A DNA stretch of 22,752 bases from a virus, in the IMG/VR virus record IMGVR_UViG_3300027714_000134, positions 1 to 22,752 of that record; one strand, given 5' to 3'. The notes beneath the pieces are model-generated. The model saw only the letters and a list, made by a program, of their open reading frames with translations, searched no databases and had not been told where the DNA came from. The position numbers and the translations under genes were made by a program. Of the stretch, positions 1,773-20,201 are shown piece after piece. The stretch's first letter is position 1. Each line of letters starts with the position of its first letter.

Positions 1773-2247
1773 TTCGGCTATCTAGTTCCATTTTAATTTG
1801 GTTTAGTAACAAGACCCTTGAGTCTATATTTATTGCGGGTTCTCCACCATCGGTTCTCATAGGAGGATATAATCCAAAACCATCCTCGTTAGTGAATAAT
1901 ACTTCAGCCATCTGCATATCTGATCCAATATTGGTATCTTCTCTAATCTCTTTGAATTCATACAAGTCAGCAGCTAAAGTTACGAGTAGTTCTGATAATT
2001 CTTCATCAATACGATCCACTTCGCTAATATCTACATCAACACCTTGATACTCAATCTTGGTGAATACTTCTTGGCCTTTAGATACTAAGTTCTCTAGCAG
2101 GTTTAGCTGACCGTTTGATTCAATGATTTCCTTGAAAATATAATATAAGTCTAAAGTACAAATAGTATCTAGAGCATTACCTTCTACACAATCTGTTAGG
2201 GAAATGTTAGCCCAATCAAATGTTTCCGGGTTTACAATTGTTAGCAT
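1759..2247 (-). CDS. PolA middle piece: end of 3'-5' exonuclease domain plus thumb
   Basis: This 162-aa protein continues, with no visible loss of sequence, from the C-terminus of the UDG-like/exonuclease gene. Residues 23-32 (GNALDTICTL) fit the Exo III motif (YxAxDxxxT): Asp27 and Thr31 are kept, but the usual Tyr is Gly23. Residues about 55-150 fit the PolA thumb: EYQGVDVDISEVDRID is the 'GV-x-vD' start, and GGEPAINIDSRVLL matches the 'G-pStd---L' segment before the polymerase core. It therefore cannot act alone and presumably pairs with its neighbours. It overlaps the upstream gene by 7 bases (ATGCTAA) and has its own GGAG ribosome site. An unnoticed sequencing error is the alternative, but the dedicated ribosome site argues against it. 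Confidence 0.8.
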   Translation of the reverse strand: MLTIVNPETFDWANISLTDCVEGNALDTICTLDLYYIFKEIIESNGQLNLLENLVSKGQEVFTKIEYQGVDVDISEVDRIDEELSELLVTLAADLYEFKEIREDTNIGSDMQMAEVLFTNEDGFGLYPPMRTDGGEPAINIDSRVLLLNQIKMELDSRNGKA

Positions 2248-3257
2248 CTTAAGTTCTCCAACCTTTCAGGAATATAAATCTTTACAAGGCTAATAAGCTT
2301 CTTAACCATATCTTCATTTACTAGGTGAGCCATTGCAGCAGTACACCTAACGTTCTCTACCTTAATACCCTCAGCCATCAGGAATTTCACATCAAATGAG
2401 GAGTTATGGAAGATCTTGACGTTATTAGGATTAGTCAACACTCGACTTACAAAATCATGGACTCCAGTAAGATCCTCTATGAATGGAGAATCCTTATGTT
2501 TCCAAGGAATAACAAATGTCCCCTTCTTGGTAGTAAAGGAAATAGTCTGAATGTAGTCGTTGTTGAAATCAAATCCTGTTGTCTCAATATCTACAGCTAC
2601 TTCTAAGTTAGTATAGCATAGCCAATCGTAATCTTCAAGCATTTCAATCTCTCCGATATAAGTATATTCTGAAACAAGTGCCTTTGCTCCTCCCAGATAT
2701 TTAGCTAAGATATTTCTTATATCAGCATCGAAGTAAAACTTTAGGCTAGGTTCAGCGACAACATGACCAGCATCAAGAGTAGGTATAACAGTGTACGTTT
2801 TTTCATCTAATTCAATTTGGAATTCAGTTCCACGTTTGGAGAAGATTCCACTCTTCTTGGTTACCATTTTCATAGCTAGGTTACCTAAGGTAATAATAAC
2901 TTTAGGGTTAGCGTCTTTAATAGTTTGTTCTATATACTTCCTACAAATATGAAAGTCAGCAGTTTCCATTGCCCTCTCGGTAATAGAGGGGCATTTTACA
3001 GCAGCAGCATATTCTATTTTAAGGTTAGGGTTATTATTATATCTACATAGAATTTCTTCAATATACTGCTTATCAATAAATCCAACTGGACTAATCTTAC
3101 CGAACTTAGACTTATTATAACTGCCTGTTACAAAGAGGATATCACATTCTCTTACATCTTGTGTTATACACTTCTCTCCCGGAGTTTTTAATATAGAGCA
3201 TCCATTACAAGGATTTTCTTCTTTGGGTTCGTTTTTAAATAGATCTTCTATATTCAT
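2241..3257 (-). CDS. UDG-like domain fused to first half of a DnaQ-like 3'-5' exonuclease (PolA N-terminal piece)
   Basis: A 338-aa protein. Residues 15-190 resemble a family-4 uracil-DNA glycosylase: Cys17, Cys20, Cys89 and Cys105 match the Fe-S ligand pattern, and TLGNLAMKMV is typical. The glycosylase active sites look changed: the GExPG motif is replaced by GSYNKSKFGKISPVGF, and the HPS loop by LDAGHV. Residues about 218-338 start a proofreading exonuclease: Exo I DIETTGFD (Asp223, Glu225) and Exo II HNSSFD (Asn285, Asp289). The protein stops before Exo III, which is in the next gene. The frame extends to 3323, but I chose the ATG at 3257: the longer version would overlap the divergent sigma gene. 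Its start has no Shine-Dalgarno. UDG-PolA fusions are known in some large phages; here the chain is broken. Confidence 0.85.
   Translation of the reverse strand: MNIEDLFKNEPKEENPCNGCSILKTPGEKCITQDVRECDILFVTGSYNKSKFGKISPVGFIDKQYIEEILCRYNNNPNLKIEYAAAVKCPSITERAMETADFHICRKYIEQTIKDANPKVIITLGNLAMKMVTKKSGIFSKRGTEFQIELDEKTYTVIPTLDAGHVVAEPSLKFYFDADIRNILAKYLGGAKALVSEYTYIGEIEMLEDYDWLCYTNLEVAVDIETTGFDFNNDYIQTISFTTKKGTFVIPWKHKDSPFIEDLTGVHDFVSRVLTNPNNVKIFHNSSFDVKFLMAEGIKVENVRCTAAMAHLVNEDMVKKLISLVKIYIPERLENLRC
2256..2259 (-). promoter_or_regulatory. Shine-Dalgarno (GGAG) for the PolA middle piece
   Basis: GGAG lies 8 bases before the ATG at 2247, inside the end of the UDG-like/exonuclease gene. This is good spacing for independent initiation. 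It decides the reading of this junction as a real gene boundary rather than a frameshift, because no slippery heptamer is seen at the overlap. Confidence 0.6.
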
Positions 3258-3259
3258 AG

Positions 3260-3265
3260 TATAAT
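3260..3265 (+). promoter_or_regulatory. TATAAT box 5 bases before the sigma-factor ATG
   Basis: TATAAT, then AGTAT, then ATG. If it acts as a -10 element, transcription would begin at or next to the start codon, giving a leaderless message; no Shine-Dalgarno is present. The 13-base gap to the divergent UDG-like gene also reads TATTATACTATG on the other strand, so the site may fire both ways. Confidence 0.5.
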
Positions 3266-3270
3266 AGTAT

Positions 3271-3612
3271 ATGGCGAAATATATCGACAACCACCGTTTC
3301 GAGGCTCTAATCTTAGAATACACTCAGGGGAATAAAAAAAACGAGGATGAGCTAATGGGCATGTTTTATATCCTAATCAGCAAGATCATAAGTGGGTTCA
3401 CCTTCAATGTAGATACTGAGGATGCGAAGCAAGACTGTATGCTACTGATTGTAAGGACTCTCAATACCTTCGATCCTGAAAGAGGAAGTGCCTTCAACTT
3501 CTTCACGACCTTAATTATTAATAGCCTAAAAAGATTATATACGAAAACAAAGCGGTATAATCAAAAAATAGATGATTATACCGCCCATGTTGTCTATAAA
3601 TCAGATACCTAA
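3271..3612 (+). CDS. gp55: gp55-like late sigma factor (short)
   Basis: A 113-aa protein resembling sigma-70 region 2 and, more specifically, T4 gp55, which directs host RNA polymerase to late promoters having only a TATAAATA box. The stretch around residues 35-92 (DTEDAKQDCMLLIVRTLNTF, then FNFFTTLIINSLKRL) follows the region 2 layout: an acidic helix, a short linker with 'FDP', then the helix that reads the -10 box. It is shorter than T4 gp55 (185 aa). It lacks the hydrophobic/acidic C-terminal tail that binds the sliding clamp in T4, so clamp dependence may differ. It is one of only two plus-strand genes, and its end overlaps the thioredoxin-like gene by 12 bases, tail to tail. An ECF-type sigma remnant is the alternative. 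Confidence 0.7.
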   Translation: MAKYIDNHRFEALILEYTQGNKKNEDELMGMFYILISKIISGFTFNVDTEDAKQDCMLLIVRTLNTFDPERGSAFNFFTTLIINSLKRLYTKTKRYNQKIDDYTAHVVYKSDT

Positions 3613-3912
3613 TAATCTATAGACATTAGGAAGGTGATCTTCTACTCTGGATCTATCCTTAATAGTAATTAAGGCAGGTAGTTTATTTACTCTGAAGATA
3701 GCAGTTCCGTGAGGGGTGTCAAAAGTATCCACTATATAAAGCTTATTAATGGCTTCTTCGTTAGATTCTAGTTTAGATTCTAATTTAATAGAAGGTTTGT
3801 CCCAAGGAGAGAGATATAAAATACTAATCTTTTCATGAGTATTTTTCTGTTCTTTAAGTACTCTGTTTAAAGCAGAACTTCCTTTTAAAGTTTGTATATT
3901 AAACTTCTTCAA
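3601..3912 (-). CDS. Thioredoxin-fold protein lacking the CxxC cysteines
   Basis: About 103 aa. The segment SILYLSPWDKPS lines up with the beta strand and active site of thioredoxin (APWCGPC), with Asp and Ser in place of the two cysteines. The later NKLPALITI fits the strand holding the conserved cis-proline, and VEDHLPNVYRLLGI fits the last helix. Redox activity is therefore unlikely; a binding or processivity role, like host thioredoxin with T7 polymerase, is possible but only a guess. The frame is open to a TTG at 3954. I chose the TTG at 3912 because it reduces the overlap with the upstream gene from 56 to 14 bases, an overlap seen twice elsewhere here. The start is uncertain. Confidence 0.6.
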   Translation of the reverse strand: MKKFNIQTLKGSSALNRVLKEQKNTHEKISILYLSPWDKPSIKLESKLESNEEAINKLYIVDTFDTPHGTAIFRVNKLPALITIKDRSRVEDHLPNVYRLLGI

Positions 3913-4198
3913 TTGTTCCGTCTTGTAAGTCTGAAAGGGGAACAGCCTCTCCAACTGTGCGTACTTCTACACTTTCTGGCTCGTCACCTTCAATTACAGG
4001 AGCATCACCTTCAATTACAGGAGCATCACCTGTGTAATTCTTTACCGCTTCAGCTAGTCGCTCTTGGAACGTTTCACATCCCATGAAGAAGATATTCCTT
4101 GCGTAATTCTCTTCTGTTTCCTCGGTAGGCTTAGTAGCATTCATAAACTGGGTGAATCCTTCAGTTTCTTGTTTATTAAGTTTGATTATAATTTTCAT
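3899..4198 (-). CDS. Small acidic hypothetical protein (99 aa)
   Basis: Begins MKIIIKLNKQE, then KPTEETEENYARNIFFMGCE, a helical block, and ends in an acidic tail with a duplicated GDAPVIE unit. I do not recognise the family. I chose the ATG at 4198 because AGGAAGAG lies about 8 bases upstream. The frame is open to an ATG at 4285, which has TATTAT 5 bases before it, so a 128-aa leaderless version is possible. The end overlaps the thioredoxin-like gene, and the two are probably co-translated. The 5' side faces the divergent nuclease gene. Confidence 0.65.
   Translation of the reverse strand: MKIIIKLNKQETEGFTQFMNATKPTEETEENYARNIFFMGCETFQERLAEAVKNYTGDAPVIEGDAPVIEGDEPESVEVRTVGEAVPLSDLQDGTIEEV
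3985..4026 (+). repeat. 21-base tandem repeat, two copies
   Basis: Two identical 21-base units (start caccttcaatt) followed by the first 5 bases of a third. The length is a multiple of three, so it adds GDAPVIE units to the acidic tail of the minus-strand protein without breaking the frame. Likely produced by replication slippage. Confidence 0.85.
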
Positions 4199-4289
4199 TC
4201 TGTTTCTCTTCCTATATTCGATTTTGATTTTAGCGTCAGTAAAATCTAACTGTTTAGATAAATCTATATTGTGATCTTTTATCATGCTC

Positions 4290-10301: not shown

Positions 10302-10478
10302 TTAGGCGTTAGTAATGTTAAGTTGTCTCCTCTTTTGGAGAGTAGAAATTTGATCAGAGATATAGCTCGCAGGAACTATAATGACCTCTTTTGGTGTAAG
10401 ATATTTGATCTCCACACCTTTAGGCGTATTTAGATACAGTTCAAAAGACTGTACACTATCATTTTTTATCTTCTTCAT
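10302..10478 (-). CDS. Small hypothetical protein upstream of the sheath (58 aa)
   Basis: Starts MKKIKNDSVQSFELYL and ends in a basic helix LQKRRQLNITNA. The middle (GVEIKYLTPKEVIIVPASYI) looks like a small beta fold of the kind seen in short phage proteins encoded near head and tail genes. It shares a loose pattern with the small protein at 17817-18005. TATATATAG lies directly before the ATG and no Shine-Dalgarno is seen. The stop is 2 bases before the sheath start, supporting a real gene in the sheath operon. Function unknown. Confidence 0.65.
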   Translation of the reverse strand: MKKIKNDSVQSFELYLNTPKGVEIKYLTPKEVIIVPASYISDQISTLQKRRQLNITNA

Positions 10479-10530: not shown

Positions 10531-13500
10531 TTATGTTTGATTAGTTAAAGATCCTGCGTAATATGACGTAGGAACATTAGGTACAGGTAGTGTAATGCTT
10601 CCCTTGTGCTTTAATAGAGCTACAAATGGAGCCATATAAGATGCCCATGTACGCGATAATTCTAAGGAAGATGAAGCTTCTGCTCCTGCTATTTGATTAA
10701 ATAACTTTAAAGCACTAATATAATTCACAGGTCTTTCCCATCCATCGGTTATAGGTGTTTGCCCTACTCCAATGAGACTAGAATTTCCAACAATACCATC
10801 CTCTAAGAAATCTTCTGTCATAAGCTTGTAATACCATTCTACGAATTTAATATCTCCGGTCATTATATAACCAGCATATAAGAAAGGTCCACACCTCATA
10901 TCTGCTGCCCACCAACCGTCAACAAAACCTGATCTGAAATCCCATCCTACAGGCATAAGAGGGGGAGGATTCTTATAACCATCTAAATTATCACTTTGAC
11001 CAATAAAAGCTTGAGCATACTCATTACCTATATCATCAGCATACTTCCAGATAAAGTATGGATATAAAACCATACTTCTATAGAAGATACCTTTAGCTTC
11101 AGGACTTCCAAAACCATAGAAAGAGTTTACTACAGCAGTTAAACCGTTCATGAATAAGGATATAGTTCCCATATTCGCAGGTTCAAATCCAGTTTGTCCC
11201 TCATGCTCTAAAGGATCATCATTTGAAGACAGAGTAAAATCTGGCATATCCCCAGATGCATTTACTATACTAGTTTGACCAAAATTACCAGAATTCATAT
11301 TTTGATCCCTGCCGCCACCACTACCGAAGTTACTTACATAAGCATCGAAAAAATCTTTAAATACGTCTGCCCATTCAAATAAATCTGCTCTTCTATCTGT
11401 AGAAGGATCAGTTATTCTATAACCTTCACTAATAGACCATATAGGGTGTCCTATTTGTCTATTAAATGAAGGGAATTTATCTCCTTTCTGTCTACCCCAT
11501 TGATATGTAGTAGAGTGATTATCATCAATATATTGCTTCATTCTCTTAAAGCTAAAGTTATATGACATATAATCATCAGGTCCATTTAGTACTTTACCCG
11601 GCTTAATAATATCAGTGTAGTGAGTATTTTTTACAATATATTTACTATGAACATGTTCTGAGTGAGCAGCTTCTTGGCGTATTATATGTTTAGCAATTCC
11701 TAAGTTACAAGAGTATATTAAAGGCTTAAATGTTTGTAAAAATCTTACGGTATGCATTCCTTCATAAGGGTTAAATGTAATATCTCCTGATTTCCAAAAG
11801 TTTCTTACTAAATCTATATCTCTCTCATGATCTCCTGCTTGTGAGTAAACCGGACCATACCCGTACATACTAGCTGAAGCGTCTGTAGGTAAATTCCATA
11901 CTCTGTCTTCAGGACTCATTTCTCTTCCACTAATACCCGATTTCTGTGCCCCTGGAGCATTTTGAATACACCACCAAGGGAACCAGTAATTCATTTGAGC
12001 TACACCAATAACTAATGACCAAGGTGAGAATAATTCAGTCCCTGTACTATCAGCATTAGCGTAAGCCAAAGCACTAGCATTTACAATATCCCCCTGTAGA
12101 CTTGTTATAGAACTATCATGACGTTGGGTTATGTATGTCATTTGAAGTTGATGTGTTCTCCATAACCATCTATTATTCTGCCATCCCTGAGCGCACTGAA
12201 TTAGTTTACCTCCAGACGCTCCGGGTTTAATATGATCATAAGGATGGTAATATCCCTGAGCCATATTTAAGTTACCTCTAGAATCTGTATCATTATTCCA
12301 CTCTCTGTGCCATCCGTAACCAGTATCTATTGTACCGCTCACAGCATTATCTAATACGTGGGTATATGTGGTGGAACATCTATAATCATTAGTTTCAAGA
12401 CCTTCATAAGCCTCCCCTACAGGATGACTTTTCTTTAGTTTGAAGTCACTCGTAATTTCAGGGTGATATTCTGCTTGTGCGCCATAACCCGGAAGCTCGT
12501 AATAAGTATTAACACCACTTATAGTTTGACCATAAGTATCCATTTCTAGTAGACTAGTAGCTTCAGCTAAACCAGCAGCATTATTAGGACCGATTACATA
12601 GTGCCTAATAATTCTTTGTCTGTTAGCTAGTAATTGCTCGAAAGTATCTCCACTATTATTTACAGGACGGATAATATAACCATTATCGGAATCCATACTA
12701 GGGTCTTCAAACTCAGCATATAACTTATAACCAGCAGGTAATCCGGTAAGTTGCATACTCTTAAACCATACTTCACCAGAGATCTCTGTATGATAGTCTA
12801 CACTACCATCTTTAACGCCCTTACTTGAATCTTTATTTATATCAAAGTTATCATTCGCAATAAGCATCCAAAGCTCAATACCAGAGGTATCAGATCTTCT
12901 AGTAATGAAGGATTGAACATTACCTATAGAATAATCAATACTTGTAGATGCTTTAGTACTGTCAGTAATAAGGGAGTGGAAATGCTCTTCATTAATAAAT
13001 ACACCATTTCTAATAACTTCCTTAGAAGTGTTAGTTAATTGGGAAGTCATATTAGATGCTTTACCCACCACATCAACTTCTAAAGTTACTCCACTAAGCT
13101 CTAAAGTACTAAATTGACCTGCACTAGGGGCAACAACAGAACCAATATTACTAAGAGTAGCAGTACCTCCCCCGCTAACAGGCCCAACTACTTGAACTAC
13201 GTCAATCTTATTATCAGCGGTCCATGCTACGGGGAATACATCACAGGCTGAACCGTCCATATAAAAGGTAGGCTCAGTACTAGAATGTTCAATAGGTACA
13301 GTTACGGATACAAGAGGATTGGCAATACTAGAAGGATCAATATACCCTACCTCTGTAGTATTAGATGCAATTGATTCAAATGTAATTCCGCTGGATGATG
13401 TGGTTGCACCATTAAGACTTGAAAGTGTAACATCGTAAGTATTGCCTTGTAAGGTTGTTGTAATAGGTATGCTACAAGATACTTGTGTGTCTGAAAGAAT

Positions 13501-15375
13501 ATCAGTATCGTAATGAACTCCATTAATTACAATTCTAGTCCTATTAGTTAACGTCCCGTAACCTACCATATAACCACTAAGGTCTGCACCAGATACAGTT
13601 ACAGCAGCTACTTCATTTGTAGTAACTACATTTACAGAGGATACGGTAGGTTCTGGTGATATCGTATAGCCTCCGGATAATGTGTCAGTTTGATTACCGT
13701 TATCGGTAGAACTCACTACGATATCAATAGTTAAACCTGCTAAATTTTCTGATACAATAGGAGTTTTAATAGTCATCCCTGATGCAACGGGTGATATAGA
13801 AACATTGGTCATTAAAGCACCTCCAATTAAAGCAGACGTTTGACTAATATTATTATAACCAGCACCAGTAATTTCGATTGTATTCCCATAACCGTAAGGG
13901 CCATAAGCAGGAGTTACTGAATCAATGACTAATGTTTGAGGTGTAACAGAATCCAATCCAGGAAGTGTAATAGCACCAAACTCCCCTGATGATCCGTTAA
14001 GACCAGAAAGGATTACATCCACCTCAACATTACTAAAAACATTACTCATTTCTAAATAACCTGATACTGAGTTATTAGTTACAATATCAGTAACCATAGG
14101 AAGTCCATTAGCATATAAAACGACTTTACCTGAATCATAACTATAATAAGGTTGTAAGTAATTATTAAAGTTATTTCCTACAGAATGAAATTCTAATCCG
14201 CTATTAGATAGACTATTTCCCTCAACTATAATAGCAGATGTGGAAACCATATCAGGCACAGGAGAAATTCTATAAACCTTACTTAAATTAATAGTAGCAT
14301 CACTTAAGGCATATCCTGGCTTTACTAATTGAATACTAATAAGATTACCGTTATCTGATTCATCAAAAGCAGCAAAAGTAGCTACTATCTTAGTACCTTC
14401 ATAGCCAGTAAATACACTAGTAGCAGATTTACCATCTAAAGTAATTAAGGTATCGTTAAATAAACCTTCACCTAAAATCTCAATCGAAACCTCTTGACTA
14501 TAAGGACCATAATCAGGAGTAATAGAATTAGCTTCAAATACTAATTCAGGTTCTGCTACAGCAACAACAGTATCACTAGGAAACTCACCAGCAGCAGGGT
14601 TAGTTGTAGCTGTAGTAAAGTCAGAAGGTTTATCTATAGGACCATTAATAATATTATATAACTGAGTCGTAAATAGTTGTATCTTACTGTTAGCAGTTAA
14701 AAGGTACTCTGGGTAAGGTACATAAGTCTCTACTGTAATATTAAACGTTCTTCTAATAACTCTATCCTCACCATCACCTGTAGATAGTTCTGAAGTATTA
14801 GTTTGTCCCTCTAAGAATGCCTTATTATTCTTACTTAGAGAAGTACTTATATTAATATGAGGATTAAACTCTCTACGAATTTGTTCCGTAAGTTGATCCA
14901 AATCAGAAATGTATTTAGCCCAGATATTAACTTCATAGGATATATTAATAGGTCTAGGTGCTAGGCTAACAATTCTATAAGCTATACCCGTAATAGGATT
15001 TCTATATTTAGTATGAATAAGCACACCCTTATAACGAACTCTGTTTTCATCCGTGTCTGAGCCAGTATTACTAATTGTAGCTATAGGTAAAACAATATTA
15101 TCATCTTGATTAAGTTTAGCTATAGCTCTCTCAGGATTAGCGTGAAAAGTTTTTACTTCAATTATTTCTTGCTCAGATGAAATGTAGTTCAAGCGACCAA
15201 ACCTTAATATAAGACTTTCGAGAACTTTACGGTAAATCATACTTACATGATTAGCCTTTTTAGAAGACTCGTCAATAAAGTTAGTCAGGATAGTTTTAGT
15301 ATCCCTTCCGTAATCACTTAAAGATGAAAGGTAAATCTCCCCTTCATCAATTGTTGTGTAGTTCTCGATTCCCAT
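10531..15375 (-). CDS. Giant fusion: gp15-like tail sheath stabiliser, TIG domains and large unknown C-terminal region (1614 aa)
   Basis: Residues about 25-245 resemble T4 gp15, which joins the tail to the head and caps the sheath; the best block is ISYEVNIWAKYISDLDQLTE then FNP at 145-172. T4 gp15 ends at about 270 residues, but this protein continues. Ig-like IPT/TIG domains follow: one at about 284-370 (NSITPDYGPYSQ), one at about 485-573 (DSVTPAYGPYGYG), and a weaker one to about 668. Residues 760-1614 form a large Trp/Tyr/His-rich region (GYGWHREWNND, WFPWWCIQNAPG, GDHERDIDLVRNFW). It recalls helical-toroid glycan-active enzymes such as the YetA/rhamnogalacturonan-lyase type, but I cannot confirm that. 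The gene follows the Lys-rich gene by 2 bases, with AAAGG as ribosome site. Likely a neck protein carrying a long surface appendage. Confidence 0.75.
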   Translation of the reverse strand: MGIENYTTIDEGEIYLSSLSDYGRDTKTILTNFIDESSKKANHVSMIYRKVLESLILRFGRLNYISSEQEIIEVKTFHANPERAIAKLNQDDNIVLPIATISNTGSDTDENRVRYKGVLIHTKYRNPITGIAYRIVSLAPRPINISYEVNIWAKYISDLDQLTEQIRREFNPHINISTSLSKNNKAFLEGQTNTSELSTGDGEDRVIRRTFNITVETYVPYPEYLLTANSKIQLFTTQLYNIINGPIDKPSDFTTATTNPAAGEFPSDTVVAVAEPELVFEANSITPDYGPYSQEVSIEILGEGLFNDTLITLDGKSATSVFTGYEGTKIVATFAAFDESDNGNLISIQLVKPGYALSDATINLSKVYRISPVPDMVSTSAIIVEGNSLSNSGLEFHSVGNNFNNYLQPYYSYDSGKVVLYANGLPMVTDIVTNNSVSGYLEMSNVFSNVEVDVILSGLNGSSGEFGAITLPGLDSVTPQTLVIDSVTPAYGPYGYGNTIEITGAGYNNISQTSALIGGALMTNVSISPVASGMTIKTPIVSENLAGLTIDIVVSSTDNGNQTDTLSGGYTISPEPTVSSVNVVTTNEVAAVTVSGADLSGYMVGYGTLTNRTRIVINGVHYDTDILSDTQVSCSIPITTTLQGNTYDVTLSSLNGATTSSSGITFESIASNTTEVGYIDPSSIANPLVSVTVPIEHSSTEPTFYMDGSACDVFPVAWTADNKIDVVQVVGPVSGGGTATLSNIGSVVAPSAGQFSTLELSGVTLEVDVVGKASNMTSQLTNTSKEVIRNGVFINEEHFHSLITDSTKASTSIDYSIGNVQSFITRRSDTSGIELWMLIANDNFDINKDSSKGVKDGSVDYHTEISGEVWFKSMQLTGLPAGYKLYAEFEDPSMDSDNGYIIRPVNNSGDTFEQLLANRQRIIRHYVIGPNNAAGLAEATSLLEMDTYGQTISGVNTYYELPGYGAQAEYHPEITSDFKLKKSHPVGEAYEGLETNDYRCSTTYTHVLDNAVSGTIDTGYGWHREWNNDTDSRGNLNMAQGYYHPYDHIKPGASGGKLIQCAQGWQNNRWLWRTHQLQMTYITQRHDSSITSLQGDIVNASALAYANADSTGTELFSPWSLVIGVAQMNYWFPWWCIQNAPGAQKSGISGREMSPEDRVWNLPTDASASMYGYGPVYSQAGDHERDIDLVRNFWKSGDITFNPYEGMHTVRFLQTFKPLIYSCNLGIAKHIIRQEAAHSEHVHSKYIVKNTHYTDIIKPGKVLNGPDDYMSYNFSFKRMKQYIDDNHSTTYQWGRQKGDKFPSFNRQIGHPIWSISEGYRITDPSTDRRADLFEWADVFKDFFDAYVSNFGSGGGRDQNMNSGNFGQTSIVNASGDMPDFTLSSNDDPLEHEGQTGFEPANMGTISLFMNGLTAVVNSFYGFGSPEAKGIFYRSMVLYPYFIWKYADDIGNEYAQAFIGQSDNLDGYKNPPPLMPVGWDFRSGFVDGWWAADMRCGPFLYAGYIMTGDIKFVEWYYKLMTEDFLEDGIVGNSSLIGVGQTPITDGWERPVNYISALKLFNQIAGAEASSSLELSRTWASYMAPFVALLKHKGSITLPVPNVPTSYYAGSLTNQT
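14592..14623 (-). repeat. 32-base exact repeat, copy 1 (giant gp15-like gene)
   Basis: Identical to 18662-18693 over 32 bases, same strand and same reading frame. Both encode DFTTATTNPA; here it is residues 252-261, exactly where the gp15-like part ends and the added domains begin. Confidence 0.95.
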
Positions 15376-18074: not shown

Positions 18075-19562
18075 TTAACTAATAACACTGTTAGATGATG
18101 ATTTACCGAATGGTGTATCGAGATACGTGGCAGTCGGACCTACAACACGGATGATTCTATAGAATCTAGAAGCAGGAGTAATCTCTGCTTTTCCGTAACG
18201 TGTAAGTAATCCTTTACGAGGCTGGAAAGACTCAGGATCGTGGATAGTCGGTAGCTCTTGGAGAGGGATATACGGGGCATATACAAAACCAGCATCCATC
18301 GGACTTGCGCCTTTATAACCAACAAGAATCTCGTCAGTAGGATAAAGAGGGTCGATGAATAAGTCGTACTTACCAGCGAATTTACCTTTATGCTCAATAG
18401 AAGTGTTACCCATGTTAGTTGGGCCGTCACTATCTTTAATACCACCTTCAAGTTTAGCAGCAGACTCAAGCATTGATCCAATAAGAGGAGACGTTAGAAT
18501 CCAAGTACCAGGACCACGAAGAGTAGTACGATAAATATCTTGACTTGCCTTGTTGATTAGGGCAAGAAGGTTAGCGTACATGTGACCAACGTGTTGAGGA
18601 GCAGAAGGGAAAGTACTTGATGTAAAGTCAATTACAAAAAGGTTACTGTCAACGGCATCTCCAGCAGGGTTAGTTGTAGCTGTAGTAAAGTCATATAGGT
18701 ACTGAGCAGGAACGAATCCCGTACCATCATCTGCAAAGTTATTAGAGTTAGTTTGATCAAGCGCAGAACGGTTGAATCCACCAACACTAGTTGATGCAAG
18801 GTTATAAGCTAGACCACGAAGGTCTTCAATAAGCTCACGGTCAATTTCGAGACGAAGTTCTTTTCCAAGAAGATCAGTAAGTTCAGCCTCAAGGTTCATA
18901 TCGTGATATGCCTTAAGATCTTGAGCAGCTTCGATTGTCCAAAGGGCTCTCATCTTACGTGTACGAGAAGCAACAGGTTGACTCTCAATGTGGAAGTTAA
19001 TCTCAGGGATTCCCGTTCCAGTCATTGCTTCACCCGCAGACACGTTAACGCCTAGGATAGAAGTAGCATCAGGCCAAGCGGCGATTTGTCCACCCATAGT
19101 ACCAGAAGCAGCACCAGCACCGTCATGCTGTAATACATCAGATGTATCAAAAGCACCAGAATCTAGTTCGATGTTCTCACCAGCAACAGAACCGATTGGT
19201 TGTGCTGTTAGACCTTTATAGGTTAGTTGGTACTTGTTGTAGATAGCTTCCTTAGCTGCACCATACTCTCTATCGTGACCGATATAGAAGATTTGTGAAA
19301 CAGGTCCGGGCATAGGTTGTACACCACAGATTTTGTTAGCTAGAAGCTCGGGATAGACTCTCTTGATAATAGGGAATGCGAACTTTTGAAAAGTGCCTAG
19401 CTTACCAACCGTTGTCGCCGTTTCGTCAATCCTAGAACTGAGAATAGCAGCAGCTTGGTTTTCGAAAAGCTGGGCAGTTGTTTTTCTGGTCCATGAATCC
19501 CCAATACCTTCAAGGGCTTTATCCCATTTTTCTAGTAGTGAGTTAATATGTTTATTTTCCAT
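18075..19562 (-). CDS. gp23: Major capsid protein, T4 gp23-like
   Basis: A 495-aa HK97-fold capsid protein that builds the head shell. It follows T4 gp23 along its length: LLEKWDKALEG and AQLFENQAA near the start, NKICGVQPMPGPVSQIFYI, GAAKEAIYNKYQ, ALWTIEAAQDLKAYHDMNLE, LTDLLGKELRLEIDRELIED, and the end MDAGFVYAPYIPL with FQPRKGLLTRYGK. In T4 the N-terminal 65 residues are removed by gp21; a possible site here is IDE47-Thr48. It begins 18 bases after the scaffold stop without a Shine-Dalgarno, which is odd for the most abundant protein. Residues 291-300 (DFTTATTNPA) are coded by the 32-base repeat shared with the giant gene. Confidence 0.97.
   Translation of the reverse strand: MENKHINSLLEKWDKALEGIGDSWTRKTTAQLFENQAAAILSSRIDETATTVGKLGTFQKFAFPIIKRVYPELLANKICGVQPMPGPVSQIFYIGHDREYGAAKEAIYNKYQLTYKGLTAQPIGSVAGENIELDSGAFDTSDVLQHDGAGAASGTMGGQIAAWPDATSILGVNVSAGEAMTGTGIPEINFHIESQPVASRTRKMRALWTIEAAQDLKAYHDMNLEAELTDLLGKELRLEIDRELIEDLRGLAYNLASTSVGGFNRSALDQTNSNNFADDGTGFVPAQYLYDFTTATTNPAGDAVDSNLFVIDFTSSTFPSAPQHVGHMYANLLALINKASQDIYRTTLRGPGTWILTSPLIGSMLESAAKLEGGIKDSDGPTNMGNTSIEHKGKFAGKYDLFIDPLYPTDEILVGYKGASPMDAGFVYAPYIPLQELPTIHDPESFQPRKGLLTRYGKAEITPASRFYRIIRVVGPTATYLDTPFGKSSSNSVIS
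18662..18693 (-). repeat. 32-base exact repeat, copy 2 (major capsid gene)
   Basis: Identical to 14592-14623 over 32 bases in the same frame, coding for DFTTATTNPA at residues 291-300 of the capsid protein. The flanks do not match. Confidence 0.95.
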
Positions 19563-19580: not shown

Positions 19581-20201
19581 TTAGTCGGTAATGTCCATTA
19601 ATGACATTACACCTTCAGTGAGGAATTCATTATTAATGACAGGAGCAACCTCAGTACCTCTGTCTACGTTTTCAGTAATAACCTTAGCTTGTTCAGAAGA
19701 GTGGAAGGGTTCGGGTGAACTCTCTTGTGCTTCTGTAAGTAATTCGTCATTACGTGATTTGGCTTCTTCTAGCTTATCTTCCCCATTGGAAAGTCTTTCT
19801 AGTAAAGCATCTTCATTATTATGAAGTGTTTCGTTTTCCGTAAGTAGCTTAGAGAACTCTTCGGATAGAACTTCAAGCTCTTCCATTAGTTCTCTATTCT
19901 CTGATACAATTTCTGAAGTACTGGTTTCTGAATCTTTAGTATTAATCTCTAAAGACATCATGCCTCGTACTTCTTCAAAAAGAGTAGCGTTACGGAAAGT
20001 ATCATTCTCAAGTGAAAGCTCAGTTAGGGCATGTTCCTTGATTTGATCAATTTTAAGTCTTAGGAAAGAGGAAATCTTAGCTTCATCAGTACGTCTCATT
20101 TTATCCACTTGCTTGTTGATAGTCTCATCGACAAGAGCAGCAATAGCGTCTAATGTAGCTTCAGTTAGTCCTTCCGGTAATAGTTCTGCGATATTTTTCA
20201 A
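19581..20201 (-). CDS. gp22: Prohead scaffold (core) protein, T4 gp22-like
   Basis: A 206-aa acidic, mostly helical protein with a coiled coil at about residues 95-160. It lies between the prohead protease and the major capsid gene, exactly where T4 has gp22. Scaffolds of this type fill the prohead and are then cut up by the protease. Several (L/I)-x-E sites fit the T4 gp21 cleavage rule: LPE10-Gly, LTE14-Ala, LTE157-Ala, ITE177-Asn and LTE196-Gly. The start is TTG (MKNIAELLPE) with AAGGAA about 10 bases upstream. T4 gp22 is about 270 aa, so this one is short. Sequence similarity in scaffolds is low, so position and composition carry the call. Confidence 0.8.
   Translation of the reverse strand: MKNIAELLPEGLTEATLDAIAALVDETINKQVDKMRRTDEAKISSFLRLKIDQIKEHALTELSLENDTFRNATLFEEVRGMMSLEINTKDSETSTSEIVSENRELMEELEVLSEEFSKLLTENETLHNNEDALLERLSNGEDKLEEAKSRNDELLTEAQESSPEPFHSSEQAKVITENVDRGTEVAPVINNEFLTEGVMSLMDITD

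Follow-up and report, generated by a model that had tools for sequence, protein, structure and literature searches.

A 32-base stretch of the major capsid gene recurs at the gp15 fusion junction of a phage: a probable recombination footprint

That phages can recombine through very short homology has been established (PMC2327257, PMC3945230); some phage recombination joints between diverged genes are reported to lie in homology of no more than two bp (PMC2327257). Templated insertions, arising by template switching or microhomology-mediated repair, are described for yeast and human cells (for example PMC11724301, PMC8421209). It is rare for a domain fusion in a phage to retain, at its joint, a readable trace of how that joint was formed. 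In the viral record analysed here (22,752 bases, called the window throughout), the junction region of a giant gp15 gene holds 32 bases that are also found in the major capsid gene.

The sequence TGACTTTACTACAGCTACAACTAACCCTGCTG occurs at 14592-14623 (copy A) and 18662-18693 (copy B), 4070 bases apart and both on the minus strand. Direct comparison confirmed what a first-pass annotation of this DNA had stated: the copies are identical (32/32 nt) and are read in the same frame, giving DFTTATTNPA. They are the only two copies in the window and form its longest dispersed exact repeat. The annotation had also judged a chance match not to be credible, which was borne out, as a 29-base pattern representing the repeat had no match in dinucleotide shuffles of the window, even with 3 mismatches allowed. 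The match grows to 39 nt with one gap and one mismatch (ACCT-TC versus ACCTATA on the 5' side). The edges of the 32-nt match are sharp, the bases shared there being ACCT at one edge and a GCT run at the other; these are too short to rise above chance. Outside the 32 nt, no significant homology was detected, the flanks being no more alike than random stretch pairs (fractions 0.47 and 0.34). Identical codons for the ten residues would arise by chance in two genes with these codon habits with a probability of about 1e-4. Judged from the sequence, the repeat is a case of DNA copying and not of protein convergence.

We searched 2.9 million viral contigs for the peptide in any codon choice (degenerate search) and retrieved it only from one other contig, L003, which was also the only other source of the exact 32-nt stretch. 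L003 carries both copies at the identical 4070-base spacing, and is identical to the window along about 9.5 kb apart from a 42-bp deletion and two bases at the extreme end of the contig; the third listed difference falls at the deletion joint. The two being nearly clonal, they were counted as one lineage. At window 19605-19707, the 42 bp are missing in frame from a scaffold-like gene, with the joint at the microhomology ATTA(C/A)T. Judged by this deletion, microhomology rearrangements seem to occur in the phage population.

Other dispersed exact repeats of at least 20 nt, sought in 82 partly redundant sequences (0.92 Mb), were either low-complexity runs (L060, L037, L041, L042) or leader-peptide sequence. 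The latter belongs to L021 (3484-5396), where four nearby small genes share near-identical first 20-odd residues (M-NENFI-RVIQ-LVEMRLDEG) with an LxE-like motif at the end; these paralogous leaders explain the 66-nt and 41-nt repeats of that locus and, we presume, resemble the capsid-targeting leaders of T4 internal head proteins. Comparing each capsid gene with its own surroundings (0.79 Mb) gave short imperfect hits only, and no related locus held a comparable copy of capsid-gene sequence. Elsewhere in the window, a short imperfect tandem repeat with 21-base spacing and DAPVIEG-like units lies at 3973-4020, within a small ORF (3899-4285). One ORF (2241-3323) matches both uracil-DNA-glycosylase and 3'-5' exonuclease profiles, and a family A DNA polymerase ORF (458-1633) lies in the same block. 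Two candidate signals were rejected: promoter-like sites were not above shuffles, and the pattern TAGTAAATA, suggested by the gaps after gp15 in relatives, was not above chance in the window.

Copy A lies in a fusion gene of 1614 aa (10531-15375, minus strand) read as a single open frame. The N-terminal part, residues 1-245 (14641-15375, minus strand), is a T4-type gp15 tail sheath stabiliser/neck protein: it matches phrog_227 and, over residues 79-239, PF16724 (41.2 bits against a cut-off of 25). A structure model built from 26 aligned sequences was confident for residues 12-237 and poor from residue 238 (pLDDT <50). A low-confidence linker follows (residues 246-282, 14530-14640, minus strand) and contains the peptide as residues 252-261. 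The annotation had placed the repeat precisely between the gp15 part and the added domains. This was nearly right: the confident gp15 fold ends near residue 237 and, in the nearest unfused relatives, the protein stops at about residue 238-246. Beyond the linker, the extension (10531-14529, minus strand) begins with TIG domains (PF01833), one probable at residues 283-338 (14362-14529) and one clear at residues 483-556 (13708-13929), and continues into an orphan C-terminal part.

Apart from L003, no relative of the extension was found in phage records, PDB sequences or viral contigs. Its C-terminal part (window 10531-12900), related only to that of L003, had no relative in bacterial and archaeal genomes either, and its single-sequence fold was uninformative (mean pLDDT 29.9). 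At the DNA level, phage records contained no relatives. We saw no foreign composition in the extension, the codon usage of which fits the phage; this suggests that the extension has been in the phage for long or came from a donor with similar codon habits. A 58-aa ORF (10302-10478, minus strand) separates the fusion gene from the sheath gene, and a small ORF occupies the matching place directly after unfused gp15 in relatives. Because a small ORF follows both gp15 in relatives and the fusion gene in the window, the place where the extension was added is the one between gp15 and the gene after it.

Conservation of the peptide in unfused gp15 homologues would have spoken against the annotation's reading of the repeat. 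We looked for such conservation and found none, an outcome in favour of that reading: DFTTATTNPA was absent from gp15 in every one of 78 loci that encode a gp15 relative (0/78, L003 excluded). Nearly all of these relatives are unfused, and the complete ones measure 203-312 aa, except for the fused protein of L044. Here (L044:3867-6578) and in L054 (9919-12462), gp15 is joined to an alpha/beta-hydrolase-like part, recognised by Pfam matches below cut-off, which constitutes a second, independent large extension. As in the window, a large domain was added after the gp15 body; the added part, however, is unrelated, and neither locus has an exact dispersed repeat of at least 20 nt.

Copy B lies in the gene of a Gp23-type major capsid protein (495 aa; 18075-19562, minus strand), which matches PF07068 with 256.9 bits (cut-off 24.4), phrog_138 and T4-type capsid chains in the PDB. 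When capsid relatives were aligned, the site of copy B fell in a loop that is very variable in both length and sequence. The frame of this loop is nevertheless recognisable in relatives, as YLYDF..NPSG in L008-L014 and as YNF-NATTNPAG in L080. The L080 loop scored 38 against the ten residues, a score reached by 0/71 control windows of the same protein, and it shares NATTNPAG at the DNA level too. In L007 and L011-L014, the loops also beat all of their controls for likeness to the peptide; L008-L010 and several other capsid loops did not, and at the capsid site relatives do not conserve the repeat stretch as such. Because capsid relatives have an alignable loop and gp15 relatives lack the peptide, the capsid gene is the native home of the stretch and the gp15 copy is derived, the direction being from the capsid gene to the gp15 gene.

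We consider it probable (roughly 0.6) that copy A was templated by capsid DNA; illegitimate recombination or template switching would have left it at the gp15 junction, where it would now act as a passive linker. The 32 bases, native to the capsid gene, would have been copied about 4 kb downstream within the same late gene block and would have landed in the junction between gp15 and the acquired extension. A few bases of microhomology would have been the site of illegitimate (ectopic) recombination or of template switching by a polymerase, the latter being the mechanism that we infer. The copied stretch would have happened to read in frame and would serve now as an ordinary linker, presumably a passive one.

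When this happened relative to the fusion is a separate question. The copy is probably recent. In codon usage the extension is already in keeping with the phage, whereas the two 32-nt copies have not diverged at all; the patch may therefore postdate the fusion, although the bound on its age, drawn from only 32 sites, would be a weak one. On this view, it would have entered a tolerant linker that was there before. A more tentative possibility is that the fusion was itself joined at the capsid fragment, the giant neck protein having been built via a template switch through the phage's own capsid gene. Besides L003, no relative shares the fusion, and no relative is known that has the fusion but lacks the patch, so that neither the order of events nor the insertion itself is directly visible. 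Of the options raised in the annotation, a recombination scar is thus the best supported, the peptide being absent from gp15 relatives, native to the capsid gene and located at the junction; less probably, this recombination may also have built the fusion.

Alternatively, the extension may have come to gp15 with part of a capsid gene already attached to it in an ancestor or donor; a deletion or exchange would then have joined it to gp15 and left the 32 bases as the last trace of the capsid part. The patch does touch the extension side of the junction and is read in the same frame in both genes, but no aligned capsid relative has a large domain in the loop, no further capsid similarity surrounds the patch and more steps are needed, which makes this history unlikely.

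We also doubt that selection keeps the ten residues because they work as a peptide in each of the two proteins, perhaps as a binding site common to head and neck. The same frame and the same peptide in both proteins would be expected of such a site, and its position in the capsid loop could be surface-exposed; against this, the identity includes every synonymous position, for which the chance probability is about 1e-4, and the peptide is neither conserved in capsid relatives nor encoded in any of the 2.9 million contigs beyond the window and L003.

The exactness of the repeat at the DNA level might rather point to a DNA or RNA signal placed in late genes, be it a mobile element or a packaging, transcription or recombination site, and the isolated 32 nt indeed fold somewhat better than shuffles (6/200 as good), with a four-pair stem. 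In both native contexts, however, the stretch folds no better than shuffles, and it has no Rfam match; only two copies exist in the window, the exact stretch is found elsewhere only in L003, and relatives do not conserve it at the capsid site. We therefore regard a signal as very improbable, and the annotation's suggestion of a conserved mobile sequence or RNA/DNA signal is unsupported for a stretch that is unique to one lineage. Least credible is an assembly artefact: the source is a metagenome contig, and the nearly clonal L003 may stem from a related sample, but a simple assembly error is unlikely because this second contig has both copies at the same spacing, and the 1614-codon frame remains open through copy A.

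The repeat is most likely a modest recombination footprint and not a new system. Since we can say here where the patch came from, the order of events becomes testable given another phage with the same fusion; if the capsid fragment did form the joint, a templated insertion would in this phage have created a domain fusion. As in the templated insertions described for eukaryotes (PMC11724301, PMC8421209), a short piece from elsewhere in the genome sits at the junction, but the enzymes there are others, and the mechanism in the window is only inferred. In common with illegitimate or relaxed recombination in phages (PMC2327257, PMC3945230), non-homologous parts are joined at or near a very short shared sequence; the window differs in that its joint contains a short segment that can be assigned to a third gene from the same genome.
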